Under the pieces are notes generated by a model that saw only the letters and a list, made by a program, of their open reading frames with translations, did not search any database and was not told the origin of the DNA. A DNA stretch of 64,000 nt. Source: Nitrospirales bacterium. GTDB lineage: Bacteria; Nitrospirota; Nitrospiria; Nitrospirales; UBA8639. A program made the translations under genes and the position numbers. This document shows, piece after piece, positions 1 through 11,829 of the stretch (position 1 is its first letter; the number at the start of each line of letters is the position of its first letter). The stretch spans positions 1 to 64,000 of the forward strand of contig JAJDBP010000016.1 of NCBI GenBank assembly GCA_029261295.1. The letters run 5' to 3'.

Positions 1-618
1 ATGTGGCGTGAAGTCCTGGGGGTTCATGCCGAAACGAAAGAGCCAATCGGCGTTATAGCGATTTCCCGAATCAGCCAAATTCGTGCTTTGCGGTCCGCCG
101 ACGAGTTGCCCGTTTTCTTCAATCGTATGGCAGCCGATACAGGCATGTTCCTTAAATATGAAAGCCCCATCCCCCACGTCTTTCTTTGTGACCTTGGCCA
201 CATCAAAAGCGCCAACGGTGACGCGTGAATCTTTCAGCTTCTTTTCAAAAAAATCGGCAATGGCATTGGCTTGTTCCTCGGTCACCATCATGTGGGTTAC
301 AGGTTCCTGCCCCTGATCCCATCTATAGTTCTTGGCATACAACAGCGGTTCCTTCCCGGTGAGCCAACGGATGAGCCAATCTCGCTGATACTTACTCCCA
401 CCCCACATGAGGTCCGGAGCTTTTAAGTTGAACCGGCTCTCTTCCTTCCCCTCAAATTTATGGCAGGTTGCACAGGTGTTTTTTAGCAATGTTTCGGTCT
501 CTTGACCTTCAGCTCTAATGGCTGAGGGGGAGACCATAAAAAAAATCAGTAAAAAGGGGAGGAGGACAACCCTGATTCTTGTTTGGGTATAAACAAAAGA
601 TGGAAGTAGCTTGTTCAT
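1..618 (-). CDS. Secreted multiheme c-type cytochrome, partial (3' end outside window)
   Basis: The reading frame is open from an ATG at 618 to the window edge, giving 206 residues without a stop, so the C terminus is missing. Residues 1-36 form a signal peptide (basic start, hydrophobic core around 17-30, Ala-x-Ala-like end). Two heme-attachment motifs are visible, CATCH at 49-53 and CIGCH at 160-164, so this is at least a diheme periplasmic electron carrier. Its redox partner cannot be read from sequence. Upstream it has a long leader, a GG-N10-GC sigma-54 promoter (763-778) and an inverted repeat (871-898), which tie it to the activator gene at 7965-9347. The gene is convergent with nothing visible and separated by about 400 bp from the DHH gene. 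Confidence 0.88.
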   Translation of the reverse strand, partial: MNKLLPSFVYTQTRIRVVLLPFLLIFFMVSPSAIRAEGQETETLLKNTCATCHKFEGKEESRFNLKAPDLMWGGSKYQRDWLIRWLTGKEPLLYAKNYRWDQGQEPVTHMMVTEEQANAIADFFEKKLKDSRVTVGAFDVAKVTKKDVGDGAFIFKEHACIGCHTIEENGQLVGGPQSTNLADSGNRYNADWLFRFGMNPQDFTPH

Positions 619-762: not shown

Positions 763-778
763 AGCAATATCAAAGCCA
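763..778 (-). promoter_or_regulatory. Predicted sigma-54 promoter of the cytochrome gene
   Basis: On the minus strand the sequence reads TGGCTTTGATATTGCT. It has GG and GC separated by exactly ten bases, with the TGGC and TTGCT blocks of the RpoN consensus intact. The predicted start is near 752, giving a leader of about 134 nt to the ATG at 618. An inverted repeat suitable for an activator lies 92 bp upstream. Confidence 0.68.
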
Positions 779-870
779 TAATGCGTGGGCATGAATTTCT
801 GATTAAAAAACCAAAAAATTAGGAGTTAAATGAGAGAAAGAAAAAAACGAACAGAGGAAATAGAGGGAGC

Positions 871-898
871 GTTAACCCTAAACAGTTAATGGGTTAAC
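871..898. promoter_or_regulatory. GTTAAC-type inverted repeat, candidate activator-binding site
   Basis: GTTAACCC and GGGTTAAC form a perfect 8-bp inverted repeat around a 12-bp centre. A third half-site, GTTAAT, starts 8 bp before the right-hand GTTAAC. A very similar arrangement occurs at 7936-7963. Both sit about 100 bp upstream of a sigma-54 promoter, the usual place for enhancer-binding proteins. Confidence 0.6.
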
Positions 899-3852: not shown

Positions 3853-4257
3853 TTAACACGGTTGGCCATTGAAAACACAGGGTTTGTAGCGGGACACATC
3901 AAATTCGGTGTCTTCCTGATAGACCAGTTCATTCCCGTTTACCCCATCCAGTTGAGGATCGTTGAACATCGTATGGTTCCACCAATAAAAAATAGGATGT
4001 TCTGGTAAATAATAAACGGGATTTCCATAGTTGCTGCGAATATGGCCTTGAACGGTGCGACCGGTGACGTAGTCGACTTTTCCGTCGTCATTTAAGGAAT
4101 AGAGGGAAAGAAACAGGCGGGATTCTTGATCGTAAATTTCGTCGATGCGTGTGATCTCATCTGGTTCTGGCGGTAATGATGGTAAAGAAGGGTTGGACAC
4201 CTGAACTGAAGCGAACATGAGCCAGCTTGAGAAAGCGAGAAGGGTCAATCCTGACAT
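3853..4257 (-). CDS. Small secreted protein of unknown function, last gene of the sulfur-redox operon
   Basis: A 134-residue protein I do not recognise. Residues 1-20 are hydrophobic and look like a signal peptide. A Pro/Glu-rich linker follows, then an aromatic-rich body with YYLPEHPIFYWWNH. There are only two cysteines, both in the last dozen residues, spaced for a possible disulfide. A very good ribosome-binding site (GGAGG, 8 nt) fixes the start. It lies 16 nt behind the cytochrome gene, so it is almost certainly co-transcribed with it. A periplasmic accessory role for that cytochrome is a guess from position only. Confidence 0.72.
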   Translation of the reverse strand: MSGLTLLAFSSWLMFASVQVSNPSLPSLPPEPDEITRIDEIYDQESRLFLSLYSLNDDGKVDYVTGRTVQGHIRSNYGNPVYYLPEHPIFYWWNHTMFNDPQLDGVNGNELVYQEDTEFDVSRYKPCVFNGQPC

Positions 4258-4273
4258 GGTGTCGTCCTCCTAA

Positions 4274-4726
4274 CTAATTGCTAAATGATCTGACATATAA
4301 TAATACATGCCAAGCCTCCTCTTCAGTCAATACAAGGGGGATAAAGGAGGCCATATCTGTTCCTGGGCTTCCGTTTTTCAAGATCCAAAACAACTCGCCA
4401 TCCGTTCTGGCCGCTTGCCAGGTTTTGTCCGTGAAGTTTCTGGGCAGTTTTCCTCGTAAACCTGGAATATTTCCTAGGCCTTTTCCATCTCTTCCGTGAC
4501 AGGTTACGCAAAAGGCTTTCGAATGAAAAATCTTTTTACCTCTCTCAATATTTTTCGGATTCGAGGGGAAGGGGTTAGTCCAGGTCCTAGCTTCTTCAAT
4601 CTTATCAGCGGGGACTCTTGGCTTTAACACGGACTGGTCTGCTGCAAAGGCGGTGGTTATGTGGCAGATCCCAAATAAAGCAATTCCGCAGATTGTCCTC
4701 TGGAGGATACCACGATGGTGATACAT
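4274..4726 (-). CDS. Monoheme class I c-type cytochrome, secreted
   Basis: A 150-residue periplasmic electron carrier. A signal peptide covers about residues 1-29, ending in AFA. The single heme site is CVTCH at 73-77, followed by the usual GRDGKG loop. Met125 in GTDMASF is the probable distal ligand, and the final helix EEEAWHVLLYVRSF is typical of CBB3/cytochrome c family folds. It is preceded by a GC-rich hairpin (4746-4772) and the DUF1264 gene, and followed closely by the 3853-4257 gene. In context it could accept electrons released in sulfur oxidation by the upstream enzymes; this is inference. Confidence 0.92.
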   Translation of the reverse strand: MYHHRGILQRTICGIALFGICHITTAFAADQSVLKPRVPADKIEEARTWTNPFPSNPKNIERGKKIFHSKAFCVTCHGRDGKGLGNIPGLRGKLPRNFTDKTWQAARTDGELFWILKNGSPGTDMASFIPLVLTEEEAWHVLLYVRSFSN

Positions 4727-4745
4727 GAGCTATTTCCTTGAGGTA

Positions 4746-4772
4746 AACGGGGGATCAAATGGATCCCCCGTT
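4746..4772 (-). terminator. Intercistronic GC-rich hairpin
   Basis: AACGGGGGATC and GATCCCCCGTT form a perfect 11-bp stem with a 5-nt loop between the DUF1264 and cytochrome genes. No T-run follows on either strand, so it is more likely an mRNA-stability or partial-termination element inside the operon than a full terminator. Confidence 0.5.
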
Positions 4773-4785
4773 CCAGCGGTTTAAA

Positions 4786-5397
4786 TTATTCTGGTTGATT
4801 GAAAATATGGCCGAGGGATTGGGGGAACGTTACTGTACCATCAGGGAACTCTTTACCCTTTGGCCAGAGATGAAAAATCACACCGTCGGTCCCTGAAGCG
4901 ACTTCAGCAATGGCTTTGACCTTTTCTGGATCGTCGATGTCTAAAATTTGTACGCGGCCAGTGGCAATTTCTTGTTTATGATCATGGAAAAACCGATGCC
5001 ATTGGATTAACGGTAACGTTCGGGAAAGTTCTTTAGCCACAAAATATTCTATAGCCACGAGTGGCGCATTGGCATCCGTGCTTTCAAACAAAAGGCATTG
5101 TAAGATTTTGTCATTAATCCCTTTACAGTAATGATGATAGGGTCCACCTGGGGTACCGTCAGGCATCAAATGGGGCGCTTGCACATGGATGTCATAGCCG
5201 TGGGCAGGCCCTAGCGGACCTTTCATCCTAGGGGTAGCGGGGGCAGTTTCAAGGGTCGGCATGGAAGCTTGATCTGAGGATACTCCAGCGCAGAAAGAAC
5301 AATGTTGTGTTTCACCGAAGGCCGGTGTGCCAGCAAATACAATAAGGAACATGGTAAAAATCCAATAAATGCTTTTTCTTACAACTGAACGCTGCAT
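4786..5397 (-). CDS. Secreted DUF1264 (OBAP-like) protein
   Basis: A 203-residue protein with a signal peptide (1-28), then a CSFC motif at 33-36, which could hold a metal or heme-independent thiol pair. From about residue 60 it matches the DUF1264 family: GPLGPAHGYDIHVQAPH, HHYC at 88-91, QCLLFES near 100, IEYFV near 116 and WHRFFHDHKQEI near 133. The family is known from plant oil-body-associated proteins and many bacteria, but no biochemical function is established. Start is fixed by AGGAGG 6 nt upstream. It lies within the rhodanese/cytochrome operon, 77 bp after the zinc-ribbon gene. Confidence 0.85.
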   Translation of the reverse strand: MQRSVVRKSIYWIFTMFLIVFAGTPAFGETQHCSFCAGVSSDQASMPTLETAPATPRMKGPLGPAHGYDIHVQAPHLMPDGTPGGPYHHYCKGINDKILQCLLFESTDANAPLVAIEYFVAKELSRTLPLIQWHRFFHDHKQEIATGRVQILDIDDPEKVKAIAEVASGTDGVIFHLWPKGKEFPDGTVTFPQSLGHIFNQPE

Positions 5398-5474
5398 AAT
5401 GACCTCCTGGTGATAAATGTGTGATGGATTGATCTGAGTCCCTATTTAAAGAATGAATGAAAAGTATAGGCCTT

Positions 5475-5696
5475 CTATCGTGTGATAGCTAATGGACTTC
5501 TTTGGTCGACCCAACTTGTTGATTTTGAGCGTGGCGGCATCCCTTGCTCTTTTTGCTGTATTCGATTTTGGAGAATCATGGAATCGAAATTTTCACCACA
5601 ATTAAGACACCGCCATATGGCCAGCACATGCATGGCTTCATCTGCGTTATAGACTTGATCACTCATCAGTAAGCCTTCGCATCGTGGACAATTCAT
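5475..5696 (-). CDS. Small zinc-ribbon protein
   Basis: A 73-residue cytoplasmic protein with two CxxC pairs, CPRC at the N terminus and CLNC about 32 residues later, which together make a zinc ribbon; the rest is hydrophilic. The start is the ATG at 5696, with GGAGA 7 nt upstream. This ATG overlaps the stop of the upstream rhodanese gene as ATGA, a sign of translational coupling. A longer in-frame reading exists but would run into the rhodanese gene. Function is unknown; coupling to a sulfur-transfer protein suggests a partner or regulator of it. Confidence 0.8.
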   Translation of the reverse strand: MNCPRCEGLLMSDQVYNADEAMHVLAIWRCLNCGENFDSMILQNRIQQKEQGMPPRSKSTSWVDQRSPLAITR

Positions 5697-6283
5697 GATG
5701 GATCTCCTTTCTTCCCGTTTGCTGATTGGGAATTCGTGATTCGGCTCATGGGAAGTTTGGATAACAGCATGCCCATCAAACACGAATCAGTTAATCCGGC
5801 GTGGAGAAGCCCTGCACCGACGATGGCAGGGAGGATAAAGAATCCACTATGGACCGTGAAGCCCAAGGCGACTCCTAACAAAATGAGTCCCCCTGCGATG
5901 GCTCGAACTTGCCCTTCCAACGAAATACCCTGTCGCCCTTTGATGATTGGTTTTCCCCGATCAACCCAAGCGGTGATACCACCTTCTAGGATGGCACAAT
6001 TTTCCAGGCCATTGTTCGTTAGATATTCATACGCGATCTTCACCCGGTTCTGCGTGCGACACACCAACATGATAGGCCGTTTCTGAGAGAGGGTTTTCAG
6101 TTCGTCCACATAGGTATGTAAATCAGGCAAGGGGATATTCCGAGCCCCAGAAATATGTACGCTCTCAAATTCTTGAGGCGTCCTGACATCGATATAGACA
6201 GCGTCGTTCGAGGTATAGTCGAATTTCTCGGTGCCAGGTATTTTTTCTGCTTGGTGTTCTTGATCGAGTACGGTGGTGCTCAT
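5693..6283 (-). CDS. Membrane-anchored rhodanese (YgaP-like, rhodanese plus DUF2892)
   Basis: A 196-residue sulfurtransferase-like protein. The rhodanese domain spans about residues 18-115; the catalytic Cys75 sits in CRTQNR and the domain has the IDVRTPQEFESVHISGARNIPL signature. From about 118 a DUF2892 region supplies two membrane helices, as in YgaP of E. coli, so the rhodanese would sit at the cytoplasmic face. Known YgaP-type proteins move sulfane sulfur from donors such as persulfides. It follows the CstB-like gene by 24 bp and overlaps the zinc-ribbon gene. A start site with AAAGGGGA upstream supports the ATG at 6283. Confidence 0.93.
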   Translation of the reverse strand: MSTTVLDQEHQAEKIPGTEKFDYTSNDAVYIDVRTPQEFESVHISGARNIPLPDLHTYVDELKTLSQKRPIMLVCRTQNRVKIAYEYLTNNGLENCAILEGGITAWVDRGKPIIKGRQGISLEGQVRAIAGGLILLGVALGFTVHSGFFILPAIVGAGLLHAGLTDSCLMGMLLSKLPMSRITNSQSANGKKGDPS

Positions 6284-6307
6284 AAGTTTTCCCCTTTCAA
6301 ATCGTTC

Positions 6308-7735
6308 TTAGGCGCAACTTGTGACGCATGCTGTTTGAACCTGATGTTTAGGATGCCCCCAGGTGGTGAGCCAGGCGTCATAGCCTCCAATTAAATCCAT
6401 GGGCTGCATTCGACCGGCCTTCTCCAAAACTCCAAGCGCGGCTGAAGATCGGTATCCGCTCGCGCAATGGACCACCACTGGAGTGCCCGCAGGAATTCTC
6501 TGAACCTGTTCGGCGAGATGTGGAAGAGGAATGTTGAGACTCTGATCAATATGTCCCGCCTCCCATTCTTTTATTCCGCGCACATCCACGACGGTGGGCG
6601 GATTGGTTGTCGTTAACAATTCGGCTAGGCCTTGTGCGGAAATCCGTTGGCCTTTTTGAAGGAGATCAGGCCTGTTCTGAATGGCCTGCATTCCGCCATC
6701 CAGATAGCCCACAACCTGATCAAAGCCAATTCGGCCTAGGCGTTCAATCGCTTCTTTTTCCGTTCCTGGCTCTGAGATCAAAACCACGGGGCGTTTTGGG
6801 TTCAACAGCGTGCCCGCCCATGTGGCAAACTTCCCAGACAATCCAATATTGAGACTGTCTTTCAAGTGGCCACCGGCATAGTCCACGGCTTTCCGGACAT
6901 CAAGAATTTGGGCACCGTTTTGTTGAAGCTCCAACGTCTCTTCCAACGGGAGAGGCGTTAAACTGTTCTTCACCACCTCTTCCAATGTTTGGTGGGCTTC
7001 ACGATTCATCTGTGCGTCATATCCAAAGTAGGCCGGAGTTTCTGGCTGATCGGCAGTGACCAACCCGATAAACTCTTGCTTCGTCATGGGTTGCAACGCG
7101 TAATTCTCCCACCGCTGTTTGCCTAAGGTCGAGACTGTCTCACTACTCAGGTTTTTTCCACACATAGAGCCTGCGCCATGCGCGGGATAGACCAAGGTGT
7201 CATCGGGAAGGGTCATCAATTTGTTTCGAAGTGAATCAAACAATTGACTGCCTAGTTCTTCGGCTGTGGTTCCTACCGAGGCCATCAGATCTGGACGCCC
7301 CACATCACCGATGAACAAGGTGTCACCGGTTAGGACGCAATGTGGATGCTCAGAACTGGTGGCGAGGTCATAGACCACCAATGAAATGCTCTCCGGTGTA
7401 TGGCCAGGGGTTTCTAAGACCTGGATCCTGAATTTTCCAAATTCCAGCACGTCTCCATCTTTGTAGGAGGTGATTGGAAAATCCGTTTTGGCTTTGGAAC
7501 CCATGCCGATGTCGGCACCCGTTTGTTTCTGGAGTTCCAGATGCCCAGCTAAAAAGTCGGCATGGAAATGAGTGAGGAAGACGAAGGGAATATGCCATCC
7601 GTGGGTCTGAGCTTCCTGAAGATATTGATCGATATCGCGCTGGGGATCGACGACGACAGCTGTTTTAGTCTCCTCGTCGGCAATCATATAGGAAGCGTGA
7701 GCTAAACATTGTAAGTAGAATTGTTTCACTACCAT
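6308..7735 (-). CDS. CstB-like persulfide dioxygenase-rhodanese (MBL, pseudorhodanese, rhodanese)
   Basis: A 475-residue three-domain protein. The N-terminal metallo-beta-lactamase domain carries THFHADFLAGH (His56, His58, Asp60, His65), ETPGHTPES and GDTLFIGDVGRPDL, the metal set of ETHE1-type persulfide dioxygenases. Next is a rhodanese-like domain (about 265-355) without a catalytic cysteine, then an active-looking rhodanese with Cys424 in VVHCASGYRSS. This order matches CstB, known to oxidise low-molecular-weight persulfides to thiosulfate. The tail adds two cysteines (470, 474). It is the first gene of the operon, with AAGGAG before the ATG, a sigma-54 promoter at 7802-7817 and an activator gene next door. 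The substrate is inferred from the family. Confidence 0.93.
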   Translation of the reverse strand: MVVKQFYLQCLAHASYMIADEETKTAVVVDPQRDIDQYLQEAQTHGWHIPFVFLTHFHADFLAGHLELQKQTGADIGMGSKAKTDFPITSYKDGDVLEFGKFRIQVLETPGHTPESISLVVYDLATSSEHPHCVLTGDTLFIGDVGRPDLMASVGTTAEELGSQLFDSLRNKLMTLPDDTLVYPAHGAGSMCGKNLSSETVSTLGKQRWENYALQPMTKQEFIGLVTADQPETPAYFGYDAQMNREAHQTLEEVVKNSLTPLPLEETLELQQNGAQILDVRKAVDYAGGHLKDSLNIGLSGKFATWAGTLLNPKRPVVLISEPGTEKEAIERLGRIGFDQVVGYLDGGMQAIQNRPDLLQKGQRISAQGLAELLTTTNPPTVVDVRGIKEWEAGHIDQSLNIPLPHLAEQVQRIPAGTPVVVHCASGYRSSAALGVLEKAGRMQPMDLIGGYDAWLTTWGHPKHQVQTACVTSCA

Positions 7736-7801: not shown

Positions 7802-7817
7802 AGCAACCCCTATGCCA
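7802..7817 (-). promoter_or_regulatory. Predicted sigma-54 promoter of the CstB-like operon
   Basis: The minus strand reads TGGCATAGGGGTTGCT: GG and GC exactly ten bases apart, with TGGCA and TTGCT matching the RpoN consensus. The predicted start is near 7791, giving a leader of about 56 nt. The GTTAAC inverted repeat lies 118 bp upstream, and a sigma-54 activator is encoded beside it. Confidence 0.78.
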
Positions 7818-7935: not shown

Positions 7936-7963
7936 CGTTAACTGCTAACTTAACAAGTTAACG
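7936..7963. promoter_or_regulatory. GTTAAC-type inverted repeat, candidate activator-binding site
   Basis: CGTTAACT and AGTTAACG form a perfect 8-bp inverted repeat around a 12-bp centre. An internal TTAAC lies 8 bp before the right-hand copy, the same offset as the third half-site in the repeat at 871-898. It touches the end of the activator gene and lies upstream of the sigma-54 promoter at 7802-7817. Confidence 0.65.
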
Positions 7964-7964
7964 T

Positions 7965-9347
7965 TTATGGGGAGGCGGGAGTTTCCAGCTTAAGAAATTT
8001 AAGTTTCTTCCAGAGGGTGACCCGGCTTACACCAAGAAGCTTGGCCGCTTCGGTTTTGTTTCCGCGAGCTTGCTGGAGGGCCTCTCGAATGCGAATTTCT
8101 TCGGCAGGGTCCAGAGAGGAAGAAGTGGTGGAAGGTAATGAGGTCTTTAGGGAGGGGCGTTGAATTTCTGGTGGAAGATCCCAAAGCGTAATGCAATTGT
8201 CTGCGACGGTCACAAACGCATGTTCAATCGCATTTTTAAGTTCGCGGACGTTCCCTGGCCAAGGATGTTCGTGAAGTCGTTGCAAGGCATCTTGCGCGAT
8301 TTCGTTGATGTCGCGATTGAAGGTCTTGGTATTGTCTTTCATGAAATGAGTAACCAAAAGAGGGATATCTTCGCGCCGTTCTCGGAGGGGTGGCAGGGTA
8401 ATTTCAAAGACATGAATACGGTAATAAAAATCTTCTCGCAAGGTGCCTGCAGCCATTAGCGTTTGTAAATTGCGATTCGTTGCCGTAATCAAGCGGACGT
8501 TCACCTTGATCGCGCGGTCATCCCCGACCCGGCGGACCTCGCTTTCCTGCAATACCCGAAGTAGCTTGAGTTGCAGTAATGGATTGGTGTCCCCGATTTC
8601 ATCCAAAAATAACGTGCCACCGTCCGCCGCTTGAAACACGCCGATCTTGTCTCGGATGGCGCCAGTGAATGCGCCCTTCACGTGACCAAACAATTCGCTT
8701 TCCAATAAGGTTTCAGGAATGGCGGAACAGTTAATCGCAAAAAAAGGTTTGTCTTTTCGGGCACTCAAGGCATGGATGGCTCGTGCGGCCAATTCTTTGC
8801 CGGTGCCGGATTCTCCAGTGAGCAGCACTGTGACATCGCTTTGGGCAGCCAGCCGTAATCGACGAAAGACTTCCTGCATTGCCAGGCTTTTGCCAATGAG
8901 CTGTTGAAAGGCTTCTCGTGATTTTGCCTGCTCTTCAAGAACCGCGATTTTTTGGTTGCTGAGAATAAAGGAGGTGAGATCGGTAAAGGTCCCTACTGCG
9001 CCTGCGACGTGTCCTTGCTCATCTCTCAGAATCGAGACATTGCCAAAGAGGTAGAGTTCTCTCCCGTCTTTGCCTAAAACCTTACATTCTTGATTACAGA
9101 TGCCCCAGGGATAGGGCGAGGGATTGTCGAGAAATTCTGTGAGAACTCGAAACCCCTTACAGTTCTGGCCTTCTAAAATGTGGCAGGATTGTCCAATGAC
9201 ATCATTGCCGGAATAGCCGGTGATCCGTGCCGCGCCACTGCTCCAGGCGACGATATGGCCCTTGGCATCGACGGTAAACACGCCGTCCGCCATCACGTCC
9301 AGCATGTTACTGAGGATGGCCGGATTTTTTCGGAAATCTAATTCCAT
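7965..9347 (-). CDS. Sigma-54-dependent activator with cysteine-bearing PAS domain (FisR-like role proposed)
   Basis: A 460-residue NtrC-family enhancer-binding protein. The N-terminal PAS domain (about 10-125) carries Cys55, Cys63, Cys84 and Cys88. A linker helix leads to the AAA+ domain (about 150-385) with Walker A GESGTGKE at 178-185, the sigma-54 contact loop GAFTGA at 225-230 and Walker B LFLDE at 246-250. A Fis-type helix-turn-helix ends the protein (about 420-452). All parts for open-complex activation are intact. FisR-type activators are known to sense persulfides through cysteines and switch on persulfide dioxygenase genes; position beside the CstB-like operon suggests the same here. 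Redox or other ligand sensing by the PAS domain remains possible. Confidence 0.94.
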
Positions 9348-9502: not shown

Positions 9503-11251
9503 TTATCGTGCTGCCAATAACGATTGGAAGGTTGGATCGGTTTTGACGATTCCCTTGAGCGTATTGTTCTCCAGCATATAGGCCCAACCTTGTGGAGTCG
9601 TGCCAGGAATTTTTTCGTACCAATCTTTTGCTTGATGCAAGAGGCCCAACATGGCGGGATTGTCACGTGGCACCTGAAAAGCAAGGCTATAGGCCATGGC
9701 ATAGGCGGCCGTAAATTTATTCAAGGGATCTTTGGTCAGATCAAATGCTTTTTTGGCCGACTCATACCCTTTGTGGATATCAGGGTCGTCGAAATGCCGG
9801 TTCCATGCGACTTTCCCAATGCGAGCCCAAGCCAATTGCAATAACACTTCGGCACGCACTTCTACTTGTTCGACTGGTACGGCCGTGAGCAATTCTTGTG
9901 GAGCAGAAAGAGCAGCCATTTGGTCATTGACCCAACGATACGTAGAAATGAGATGTAAGCGATTATTGAAATCTCCTGGCTCAACTGAGGCTAAAGCCTC
10001 CATAACTGGAATCATGCGATAGAGATAATCCGCAGGAGTGGGTTCCGCTTTTCCTCCTGTCACCATGCCTAAGCCTAAATCAAAACGATCAGTTTGTGAT
10101 TTCACGGTCCAATACAATTCATTAAATCGCTCAGCTAATCTGACATTCTCAATGGGAATGCCATTGAGTCGTCCCCCAAAGCTCAACAGACCTTGGTACA
10201 GTTGATTGGCAAAGACACTCAATACCTGTTGATTGTTTGGGGCAATCATTAAGACACGATTGAGCTGCATGAGGGTATCTAATGGATTACCAGCGGCTTG
10301 TGCCTGTTTCACACCAGCGAGCGCGGCTGGAATTTGATCGTCAGGTCCAAACCATTTCGTTGAATGTTGGACGAATCCACCGGCATCAACAACAAAAGGA
10401 ATTGTGGTGCCATGGGGACCTTCAAGAGGAAGATCCAGGACCGCTTGATCAACGGGAAACCCCAATCGTTTGAGGTCCGAAAGCACGACCCATTTTACCT
10501 TCACCGATTGAATGACACGCTGGAATTTTTTGTAGGGCACCACCCAATCCGCAGATCCAGGTCCATTTGAAATCGGGGCGGTCAACGGATTCGGATAGGA
10601 AATAGTTGTGATGACAAAATTGGTAGGAGCCGCATGAACCGTACTCTCATCAGGCGAGGGAAAAGAGGCATGAGGCAAGGTTCCTGCTTCAACGGCTTCA
10701 ATGGTAAAAGGATGGTCGGGCTCATGCCGGGCGATGTCATGCATGACAAAAAATGATGGGGCCAGTTGCTTGCTCGATGTTTCGGCAATATAAAAGCGTT
10801 GAAAATCGACAAAATCCACTAACTTACCTGGTCCAGGCCATACATTATCTAACCCTCCATCGTGTTCATTCAGGAGTCGACTATGGGCGGCGGTACGGCG
10901 CTGAGCACACCATTCATAGACAGGGCTTAACGCGTCTGGAAAATTTCCGTCGACCAACAATTGTTGTTGAGCCATTTTCAACAAGCAGACAAAATCCCGT
11001 TGTCCGGCTGCAACACGATCATTCTTGCCAACGGCTTGCGCATATTCATTGATCGTCGCGAGCAATGCGTCTTGATTGGCCGCATGGGACTCGCTGGCCC
11101 AAGGGGTCATCGTCCCAAATAAGAACACGGTACCTAAGAGAAGTCCCATCTGAAATCTGCCGATGAAACCGGAGCCAAAAGAAGCCGAAAGACGATCAGC
11201 TCCGTCTGCAGGGATATTTTTTTCAATTAAGGGGTGACAAGCTGTACTCAT
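9503..11251 (-). CDS. Large secreted protein of unknown function
   Basis: A 582-residue protein I cannot assign to a family. The start has AGGAGGAG upstream, giving a long N terminus before a hydrophobic segment at about 34-50 and an Ala-rich cleavage region near residue 58, so it is probably exported. The first half is rich in aromatic and Pro residues with several short VVPYKKF-like blocks. The second half (about 310-582) is helical and resembles TPR/SEL1-like repeats, with MQLNRVLMIAPNNQQVL and repeated Ala/Leu helices. There is no obvious catalytic motif. It lies between a cupredoxin gene upstream (hairpin in between) and the sigma-54 activator gene downstream. Confidence 0.8.
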   Translation of the reverse strand: MSTACHPLIEKNIPADGADRLSASFGSGFIGRFQMGLLLGTVFLFGTMTPWASESHAANQDALLATINEYAQAVGKNDRVAAGQRDFVCLLKMAQQQLLVDGNFPDALSPVYEWCAQRRTAAHSRLLNEHDGGLDNVWPGPGKLVDFVDFQRFYIAETSSKQLAPSFFVMHDIARHEPDHPFTIEAVEAGTLPHASFPSPDESTVHAAPTNFVITTISYPNPLTAPISNGPGSADWVVPYKKFQRVIQSVKVKWVVLSDLKRLGFPVDQAVLDLPLEGPHGTTIPFVVDAGGFVQHSTKWFGPDDQIPAALAGVKQAQAAGNPLDTLMQLNRVLMIAPNNQQVLSVFANQLYQGLLSFGGRLNGIPIENVRLAERFNELYWTVKSQTDRFDLGLGMVTGGKAEPTPADYLYRMIPVMEALASVEPGDFNNRLHLISTYRWVNDQMAALSAPQELLTAVPVEQVEVRAEVLLQLAWARIGKVAWNRHFDDPDIHKGYESAKKAFDLTKDPLNKFTAAYAMAYSLAFQVPRDNPAMLGLLHQAKDWYEKIPGTTPQGWAYMLENNTLKGIVKTDPTFQSLLAAR

Positions 11252-11304
11252 GGATCCGAACTCCTCCTCAAAAACATGTTGAATGAAAAGTATCTAGTAA
11301 TCTT

Positions 11305-11323
11305 CCGAGGTAAAAACCCTCGG
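11305..11323 (-). terminator. Short intercistronic hairpin
   Basis: CCGAGG and CCTCGG form a 6-bp stem with a 7-nt loop, starting 12 bp past the cupredoxin stop codon. There is no following T-run. It may reduce read-through from the cupredoxin gene into the 582-residue protein gene. Confidence 0.35.
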
Positions 11324-11334
11324 TGGCAAAGCAA

Positions 11335-11829
11335 TCACTGTACCATACCAAGATTCTCACGCACTACGATGGTACCGCGCATTACATGCCCTGGTAAATC
11401 GCAGAAATAGGGGTATGTCCCTGGACGAACTGGCGTAAAGACGATTTCTGTTTGTCCTCGGGTCGGTAGGAGCACCCGGATAAAACCTTCTTTGGCGAAT
11501 TGCGGAGCCCCATTCCCACTTACGGCCACATGGGAATCAGCGAGTAACCCCACGGGCACAAAGGCATGTAGTTCGGTATCTAAATTTTTCAAGATCAATC
11601 GTGTTTGTTGACCAACCGGGATCGTCAATGATTCTGGCTGAAACGCACGATGGCGAATATGAATGATTTGTTCGAGCACCTCGAGCTTTGGACTTGGATC
11701 AAGTCGGGCGGGTGTGGCACTCCATGCGGAAAAAACGGGTGAAACACATAGGAAACTGGTCAGGCACAAAGAGGTGGCGACGAGTCGGAGACGGGAAAAG
11801 CATGGGAATTGAGACAATAATATAGTCAT
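11335..11829 (-). CDS. Secreted cupredoxin (blue-copper protein)
   Basis: A 164-residue periplasmic copper protein. A signal peptide covers about residues 1-37. The cupredoxin fold follows with the complete type 1 copper set: His88 in TELHAF, then Cys143, His148 and Met150 in YFCDLPGHVMRG. The spacing resembles plastocyanin-like and nitrosocyanin-adjacent families with CxxxxHxM. It probably shuttles electrons in the periplasm or stores copper. It is followed 83 bp downstream by the 582-residue secreted-protein gene. Two further cupredoxins occur in the window (43386-43871 and 45064-45441). Confidence 0.92.
   Translation of the reverse strand: MTILLSQFPCFSRLRLVATSLCLTSFLCVSPVFSAWSATPARLDPSPKLEVLEQIIHIRHRAFQPESLTIPVGQQTRLILKNLDTELHAFVPVGLLADSHVAVSGNGAPQFAKEGFIRVLLPTRGQTEIVFTPVRPGTYPYFCDLPGHVMRGTIVVRENLGMVQ

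Follow-up and report, generated by a model that had tools for sequence, protein, structure and literature searches.

Why does a gene for a DUF1264 protein lie in one gene cluster with a CstB-like sulfur enzyme and a cytochrome c in a Nitrospirales bacterium, and which of these neighbours is its partner? The question is raised by six minus-strand genes, at 3853-7735, of a 64,000-nucleotide stretch (assembly GCA_029261295.1, contig JAJDBP010000016.1, positions 1 to 64,000), hereafter the window. Based on a comparison of this locus with its relatives, we propose that it is an operon that responds to reactive sulfur under the control of sigma-54 and would have a periplasmic redox pair of DUF1264 and cytochrome at its centre, a reading to which we give about an even chance. 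What stays constant in the regulon is DUF1264 with the mono-heme cytochrome, and outside it, too, the two genes nearly always go together. All six reading frames of the original prediction, made from the letters of the window alone, are open at the places given (Table 1). Behind the promoter they follow the order CstB-like enzyme, rhodanese with transmembrane segment, zinc ribbon, DUF1264, cytochrome c and small secreted protein, separated by 24 bp, by the expected 4-nt ATGA overlap (5693-5696) between rhodanese and zinc ribbon, and then by 77, 59 and 16 bp. The single sigma-54 promoter claimed for them is borne out by one consensus site, the sole match in 64 kb, where 0.06 would be expected by chance. 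As judged from sequence, the six genes would form one operon behind this site.

Which neighbour stays with DUF1264 when other genomes are compared? The sample consisted of the loci from a survey of Nitrospirota genomes and of 80 more from a scan of named genomes, some of the same species. Of 396 Nitrospirota genomes, 128 encode DUF1264, and 126 of these belong to the Nitrospirales. The original prediction had coupled it to the CstB-like enzyme and had counted on its neighbours being non-random; they are non-random, but the constant partner is the cytochrome, not CstB. Of the 145 loci having enough downstream sequence, 130 show a same-strand cytochrome gene no more than 400 bp beyond DUF1264, at a median distance of 135 bp between homologous segments; the remaining loci are for the most part paralogues or the leading members of tandem DUF1264 pairs. 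The link to the CstB-like enzyme is real in the window's operon, but CstB, rhodanese and zinc ribbon occur at clear identity in no family other than the window's, and not all of its loci have them. This family would be UBA8639, Nitrospirales lineage IV, because its relatives include the isolate UBA8639 and NPIRA genomes and because SorAB, as stated in the passages of PMC12342949 that concern it, is largely restricted to lineage IV.

Several loci depart from the simple pair. At three (L055, L056, L057) DUF1264 is duplicated in tandem ahead of one cytochrome, and at six (L032, L038, L072, L094, L095, L098) a second type of DUF1264 stands without a cytochrome partner, in several cases close to a CBS-domain-like gene. 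Two loci in metagenome-assembled genomes (MAGs) of Nitrospinota (L129, L139) carry DUF1264, at 77-78% identity, and the cytochrome, followed by multiheme cytochromes, which suggests either transfer between phyla of nitrite oxidisers or mis-binned contigs. In Nitrospira sp. RSF12 the pair lies directly upstream of NxrA (L065/L112). We considered DUF1264 as a protein linked to nitrite oxidoreductase (NXR) and rejected the idea: adjacency to NxrA is confined to one genome, and inside the Nitrospirales the two show no association. Both are present in 104 Nitrospirales genomes, DUF1264 alone in 22, NxrA alone in 14 and neither in 4, counts to which MAG incompleteness adds noise. As the presence of DUF1264 does not track NxrA, an NXR-specific role is argued against.

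What would switch the operon on? The next gene upstream on the same strand, absent from the original prediction, encodes a putative sigma-54 enhancer-binding activator, the PAS cysteines of which (C55, C63, C84 and C88) are unchanged in all 27 of the family members compared. The GTTAAC inverted repeat behind this gene, a likely upstream activating sequence (UAS) that the original prediction did not name either, is a single match in the 4.06-Mb genome, even when 3 mismatches are allowed. Among 24 distinct loci of the window's family, a GTTAA..TTAAC repeat follows the activator gene in 22 (reversed control, 2 of 24) and a sigma-54 site with at least 14 of 16 consensus positions is found in 22; in one further locus, repeat and site are both present at a somewhat greater distance. 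The first gene behind the promoter differs among family genomes, being CstB as here, rhodanese or, in streamlined relatives, DUF1264. With this gene varying, the invariant cargo is the DUF1264–cytochrome pair. On the evidence of these sites the lineage-IV branch has its own sigma-54 activator, predicted to switch on the pair, often together with sulfur-detoxifying enzymes.

What ties the system to sulfur? The CstB-like protein is matched over its full length by 3TP9 (phmmer E 2e-89) and by 3R2U (E 2e-61, 3R2U residues 2-452), and the whole CstB architecture of metallo-beta-lactamase (MBL), pseudo-rhodanese and rhodanese domains is present. Kept in it are H56, H112, D138, C192 and C424, the last a rhodanese cysteine that its first rhodanese lacks; by comparison with ETHE1, H56, H112 and D138 are taken to be the 2-His-1-Asp iron ligands. 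It resembles Staphylococcus aureus CstB (3R2U) and 3TP9 in its MBL and two rhodanese domains, in the iron-ligand motifs, in the cysteine after PAHGAG and in the confinement of the active cysteine to the last rhodanese. Unlike the CstB system, the window operon has no gene for a CstR-type repressor, is apparently sigma-54-activated and contains DUF1264 and cytochrome c. SorA and SorB, a sulfite:cytochrome c oxidoreductase by family, are same-strand members of the cluster in many relatives. In this genome SorA lies outside the window, on contig C33, which is not visibly continuous with the end of the window's contig; there (L165, G000:C33, 1118-4112) it is followed by a 118-aa SorB with one heme motif and by a TSUP exporter gene. 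For comparison, SorB of locus L036 has 221 aa and two heme motifs, and SorB in this genome may be cut short. The periplasmic SorAB of lineage IV, with cytochrome c as acceptor, is found in the cluster of relatives, and the passages on it in PMC12342949 and PMC8115632 describe neither the activator nor CstB nor the link to DUF1264. PMC8115632 reports a sulfite:cytochrome c oxidoreductase and no sulfide:quinone oxidoreductase (SQR) for Nitrospira marina, which fits a sulfite or persulfide route rather than a sulfide-quinone one.

Related regulators and DUF1264 loci in other lineages point in the same direction. The window activator, with its AAA+ sigma-54 domain, Fis-type helix-turn-helix (HTH) and an adjacent sigma-54 promoter of sulfur genes, has the FisR-type layout, and it resembles the FisR pdo–sqr operons of Cupriavidus pinatubonensis and Acinetobacter baumannii (PMC7315123) in that a Fis-family sigma-54 activator stands beside a persulfide dioxygenase (PDO) operon with a sigma-54 promoter ahead of it. 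It differs from those systems in that the activator lies upstream on the same strand, SQR is missing from the operon and DUF1264–cytochrome is added. In G029, a genome from a different Nitrospirota family, the DUF1264–cytochrome pair is independently found in divergent orientation to an activator gene. This activator has C57, C68 and C75; its cysteine spacing of 11 equals that of C53 and C64, between which a tetrasulfide forms in Cupriavidus FisR (PMC8614764), and its 53% homologue in Cupriavidus metallidurans CH34 adjoins PDO (ETHE1 E 5e-29) and SQR (E 7e-93). DUF1264 is also found inside ArsR/YeeE/TauE/PDO-type clusters on two plasmids, Azospirillum sp. TSA2s p1 and Pseudomonas fluorescens pPHE24, beside an MBL gene of the PDO kind and a sulfite exporter; the former cluster holds a DUF2892 gene too, and the latter c-type cytochromes and thiol-disulfide proteins. 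These clusters differ from the window's in their ArsR-type regulator, in a longer DUF1264 with a full Pfam match and in lacking an adjacent mono-heme cytochrome of the Nitrospira type. The sulfur or redox role that had been suggested for DUF1264 thus finds support in the SorAB, FisR-type and PDO/TauE contexts, but does not extend to every locus. As far as gene context can tell, the sulfur link of DUF1264 is recurrent, not universal.

Several observations weigh against a sulfur response. In several streamlined relatives activator, DUF1264 and cytochrome are kept and CstB and rhodanese are not nearby. Some 100 Nitrospiraceae-type loci hold the bare pair, with sulfur genes in 5 of them, and a sigma-54 site was found upstream of the pair in 0 of 99 such regions. 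Ten other proteobacterial DUF1264 contexts lie outside sulfur clusters, the PAS cysteines of the window activator (55/63/84/88) are not at the C53–C64 spacing of FisR, and no SQR was seen beside the window operon, a genome-wide search for it not having been made. The DUF1264 model had no Foldseek match among solved folds at E<=0.001 and a best VIA-align Z of 4.4, matches so weak that no function can be read from it; a sequence search found no solved DUF1264 structure, and the open papers searched give no bacterial function or known activity. One alternative is that the pair serves nitrifying Nitrospirales and Nitrospinota at large as a module for periplasmic electron transfer or respiratory stress, concerned with something other than sulfur, and that the window's family placed it under a new activator and afterwards added sulfur genes. 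Such a module would account for the Nitrospiraceae-type loci that have neither sulfur genes nor a sigma-54 site, for pairs beside multiheme cytochromes or a CCP/MauG gene, for the similarity of the Nitrospinota copies and for the pair ahead of NxrA in one Nitrospira; it sits less easily with the independent FisR-type and PDO/TauE contexts outside this lineage and with the lack of NxrA association within Nitrospirales, and we regard it as a genuine possibility that falls short of an even chance. A different proposal would have the activator sense nitrosative, metal or redox stress, its PAS cysteines binding metal or Fe-S, and the operon serve general thiol and redox defence with persulfide as one output. 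The un-FisR-like cysteine spacing, the zinc-ribbon and rhodanese genes, which are compatible with general thiol stress, and a manganese catalase gene near DUF1264 on one Pseudomonas syringae plasmid all accord with it. However, the SorAB and CstB neighbours are sulfur enzymes by family and Pfam recognises no enzyme against reactive oxygen or nitrogen species in the window's cluster, so that we consider this proposal unlikely.

A further alternative concerns the spacer between DUF1264 and cytochrome, where the original prediction had placed a hairpin at 4746-4772; it is present, bounded here at 4745-4773. The window spacer has a folding energy of -23 kcal/mol (z -3.49), and 0 of 200 shuffles are as stable. 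For 118 distinct loci the 70 nt that follow the stop codon of DUF1264 were compared with 300 control regions taken from these loci: the median folding z is -3.6 in the spacers versus +0.1 in the controls, and stems of at least 11 pairs occur in 73% versus 12%, starting at a median of 11 nt past the stop codon. From one relative to the next the sequences of the stem arms vary greatly, MAFFT alignments of spacers in small groups yield few two-sided covarying changes, and a stem-anchored pairwise count gave 69 two-sided kept, 118 one-sided kept and 50 unpaired among spacers chosen for stems; with covariation weak and the spacers so chosen, conservation of structure rests mainly on the energy statistics. 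Could the stem-loop be a weak terminator or attenuator that splits two transcription units, the cytochrome being expressed mostly from its own promoter? A T-run is present in Nitrospinota spacer L139, and at least 6 T (6-7) among the 8 nt after the stem are found in 3 of 97 spacers, the others having none such. In the window the stem is followed by TACC, with no T-run as in a rho-independent terminator, and the spacer has no sigma-70-like site on the minus strand. The stem-loop does not have the profile of a classical terminator, a transcript break at the window hairpin is not predicted in the absence of a U-tract, and we hold a division into two units to be distinctly improbable. By analogy with known intercistronic stem-loops, from which such a role in stability and stoichiometry is drawn, the structure most probably protects the upstream message, so that more DUF1264 than cytochrome is made.

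The reactive-sulfur response is preferred because of the near-constant pair, the conserved activator, UAS and sigma-54 site, the four invariant PAS cysteines, the full-length CstB match, SorAB in relatives, the FisR-type and PDO/TauE contexts and the hairpin statistics. How might it work? A persulfide, polysulfide or related thiol-reactive signal would modify the activator in its cysteine-rich PAS domain, and the activator may then bind the GTTAAC repeat and open the sigma-54 promoter. As expected of their families, the cytosolic CstB-like enzyme would oxidise persulfide, with sulfite or thiosulfate as product, and sulfane sulfur would be passed on by the membrane rhodanese. Sulfite in the periplasm would be oxidised by SorAB with electrons passed to c-type cytochromes, plausibly reaching the operon's own predicted mono-heme cytochrome. 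DUF1264 and this cytochrome would be secreted partners: the former, rich in His, Cys and Glu, may bind metal or sulfur species and exchange electrons with, protect or mature the latter, and the stem-loop would stabilise the DUF1264 message and keep the protein above the cytochrome.

What kind of protein is DUF1264? The window protein exceeds the gathering cut-off of PF06884 (58.6 bits, cut-off 25), and its predicted model has a pLDDT (a local confidence score) above 90 for much of residues 65-180. Alignment reveals conserved HHYC and QC motifs and the residues H88/H89, C91, C101, E117, H138, H140, E143 and W178. An N-terminal extension with HCSFC (5280-5310, minus strand) is missing in most relatives; L053 has a similar one with RCWFC. 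Plant OBAP1 belongs to the same Pfam family and is an oil-body protein, whereas the window protein is shorter, carries a predicted signal peptide and has a cytochrome as its gene partner. The 'CSP-DUF1264' of Beggiatoa (PMC4679880) is presumably a different domain, DUF1294. We advance tentatively, as a rather doubtful extension, that DUF1264 is an unrecognised periplasmic metal- or sulfur-binding redox protein and the obligate partner of a dedicated cytochrome c, on an oxidation route from sulfane sulfur or sulfite to the respiratory chain, in a stoichiometry fixed by the stem-loop.

Other features of the window are collected in Table 1. The cytochrome scores 103.9 bits (E 8e-30) against the cytochrome 579 model NF033864 of NCBIfam, the curated cut-off of which is 280, and by this comparison is a distant relative of cytochrome 579, not a member. 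The YgaP-like segment of the rhodanese lies slightly under its Pfam cut-off (23.7 versus 25.3 bits). Ahead of the activator, two genes (9503-11829, minus strand; 582 aa, without Pfam family, and 164 aa) are kept with it in most family loci. Near the contig end, a second UAS-like repeat and sigma-54-like promoter, the former not in the original prediction, form the sole genome match to the pattern at that spacing (763-898; reversed-pattern control 0); they precede a multiheme cytochrome gene, and in some relatives a homologue of this gene comes directly after the DUF1264–cytochrome pair, in the same orientation.

Table 1. Features of the operon and its surroundings (window positions)
Feature	Position	Strand	Basis and remarks
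Multiheme cytochrome c gene start	1..618	-	Cut by contig end
Second sigma-54-like promoter TGGCTTTGATATTGCT	763..778	-	Upstream of multiheme cytochrome
Second UAS-like repeat GTTAACCCATTAACTGTTTAGGGTTAACG	870..898	-	
Small secreted protein	3853..4257	-	No Pfam family; kept in 21 related loci
Secreted mono-heme cytochrome c (CVTCH)	4274..4726	-	Pfam cytochrome c clear
Intercistronic RNA stem-loop, DUF1264/cytochrome c spacer	4745..4773	-	12 bp, loop 5; z -3.49
DUF1264 (OBAP-family) protein	4786..5397	-	PF06884; signal peptide predicted, judged from sequence
Small zinc-ribbon protein, two CxxC	5475..5696	-	Zinc-ribbon Pfam matches all below cut-off
Rhodanese (C75) with C-terminal YgaP-like transmembrane segment	5693..6283	-	Pfam Rhodanese 5e-16, YgaP-like_TM 5e-5
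CstB-like persulfide dioxygenase with pseudo-rhodanese and rhodanese	6308..7735	-	Pfam, phmmer; H56, H112, D138, C192, C424
Sigma-54 promoter TGGCATAGGGGTTGCT	7802..7817	-	Perfect consensus
Likely activator binding site (UAS), inverted repeat CGTTAACTTGTTAAGTTAGCAGTTAACG	7936..7963	-	Directly after regulator stop codon
Sigma-54 enhancer-binding activator, PAS + AAA+ + Fis-type HTH	7965..9347	-	Pfam

What are the implications for this family and these organisms? DUF1264/OBAP proteins are found in plants, fungi and bacteria, and a cytochrome partner, an activator and a likely class of inducer make the role of the bacterial form testable. A regulated sulfur response in nitrite oxidisers would extend the published notes on sulfur in lineage IV, which concern SorAB, mostly without SQR.

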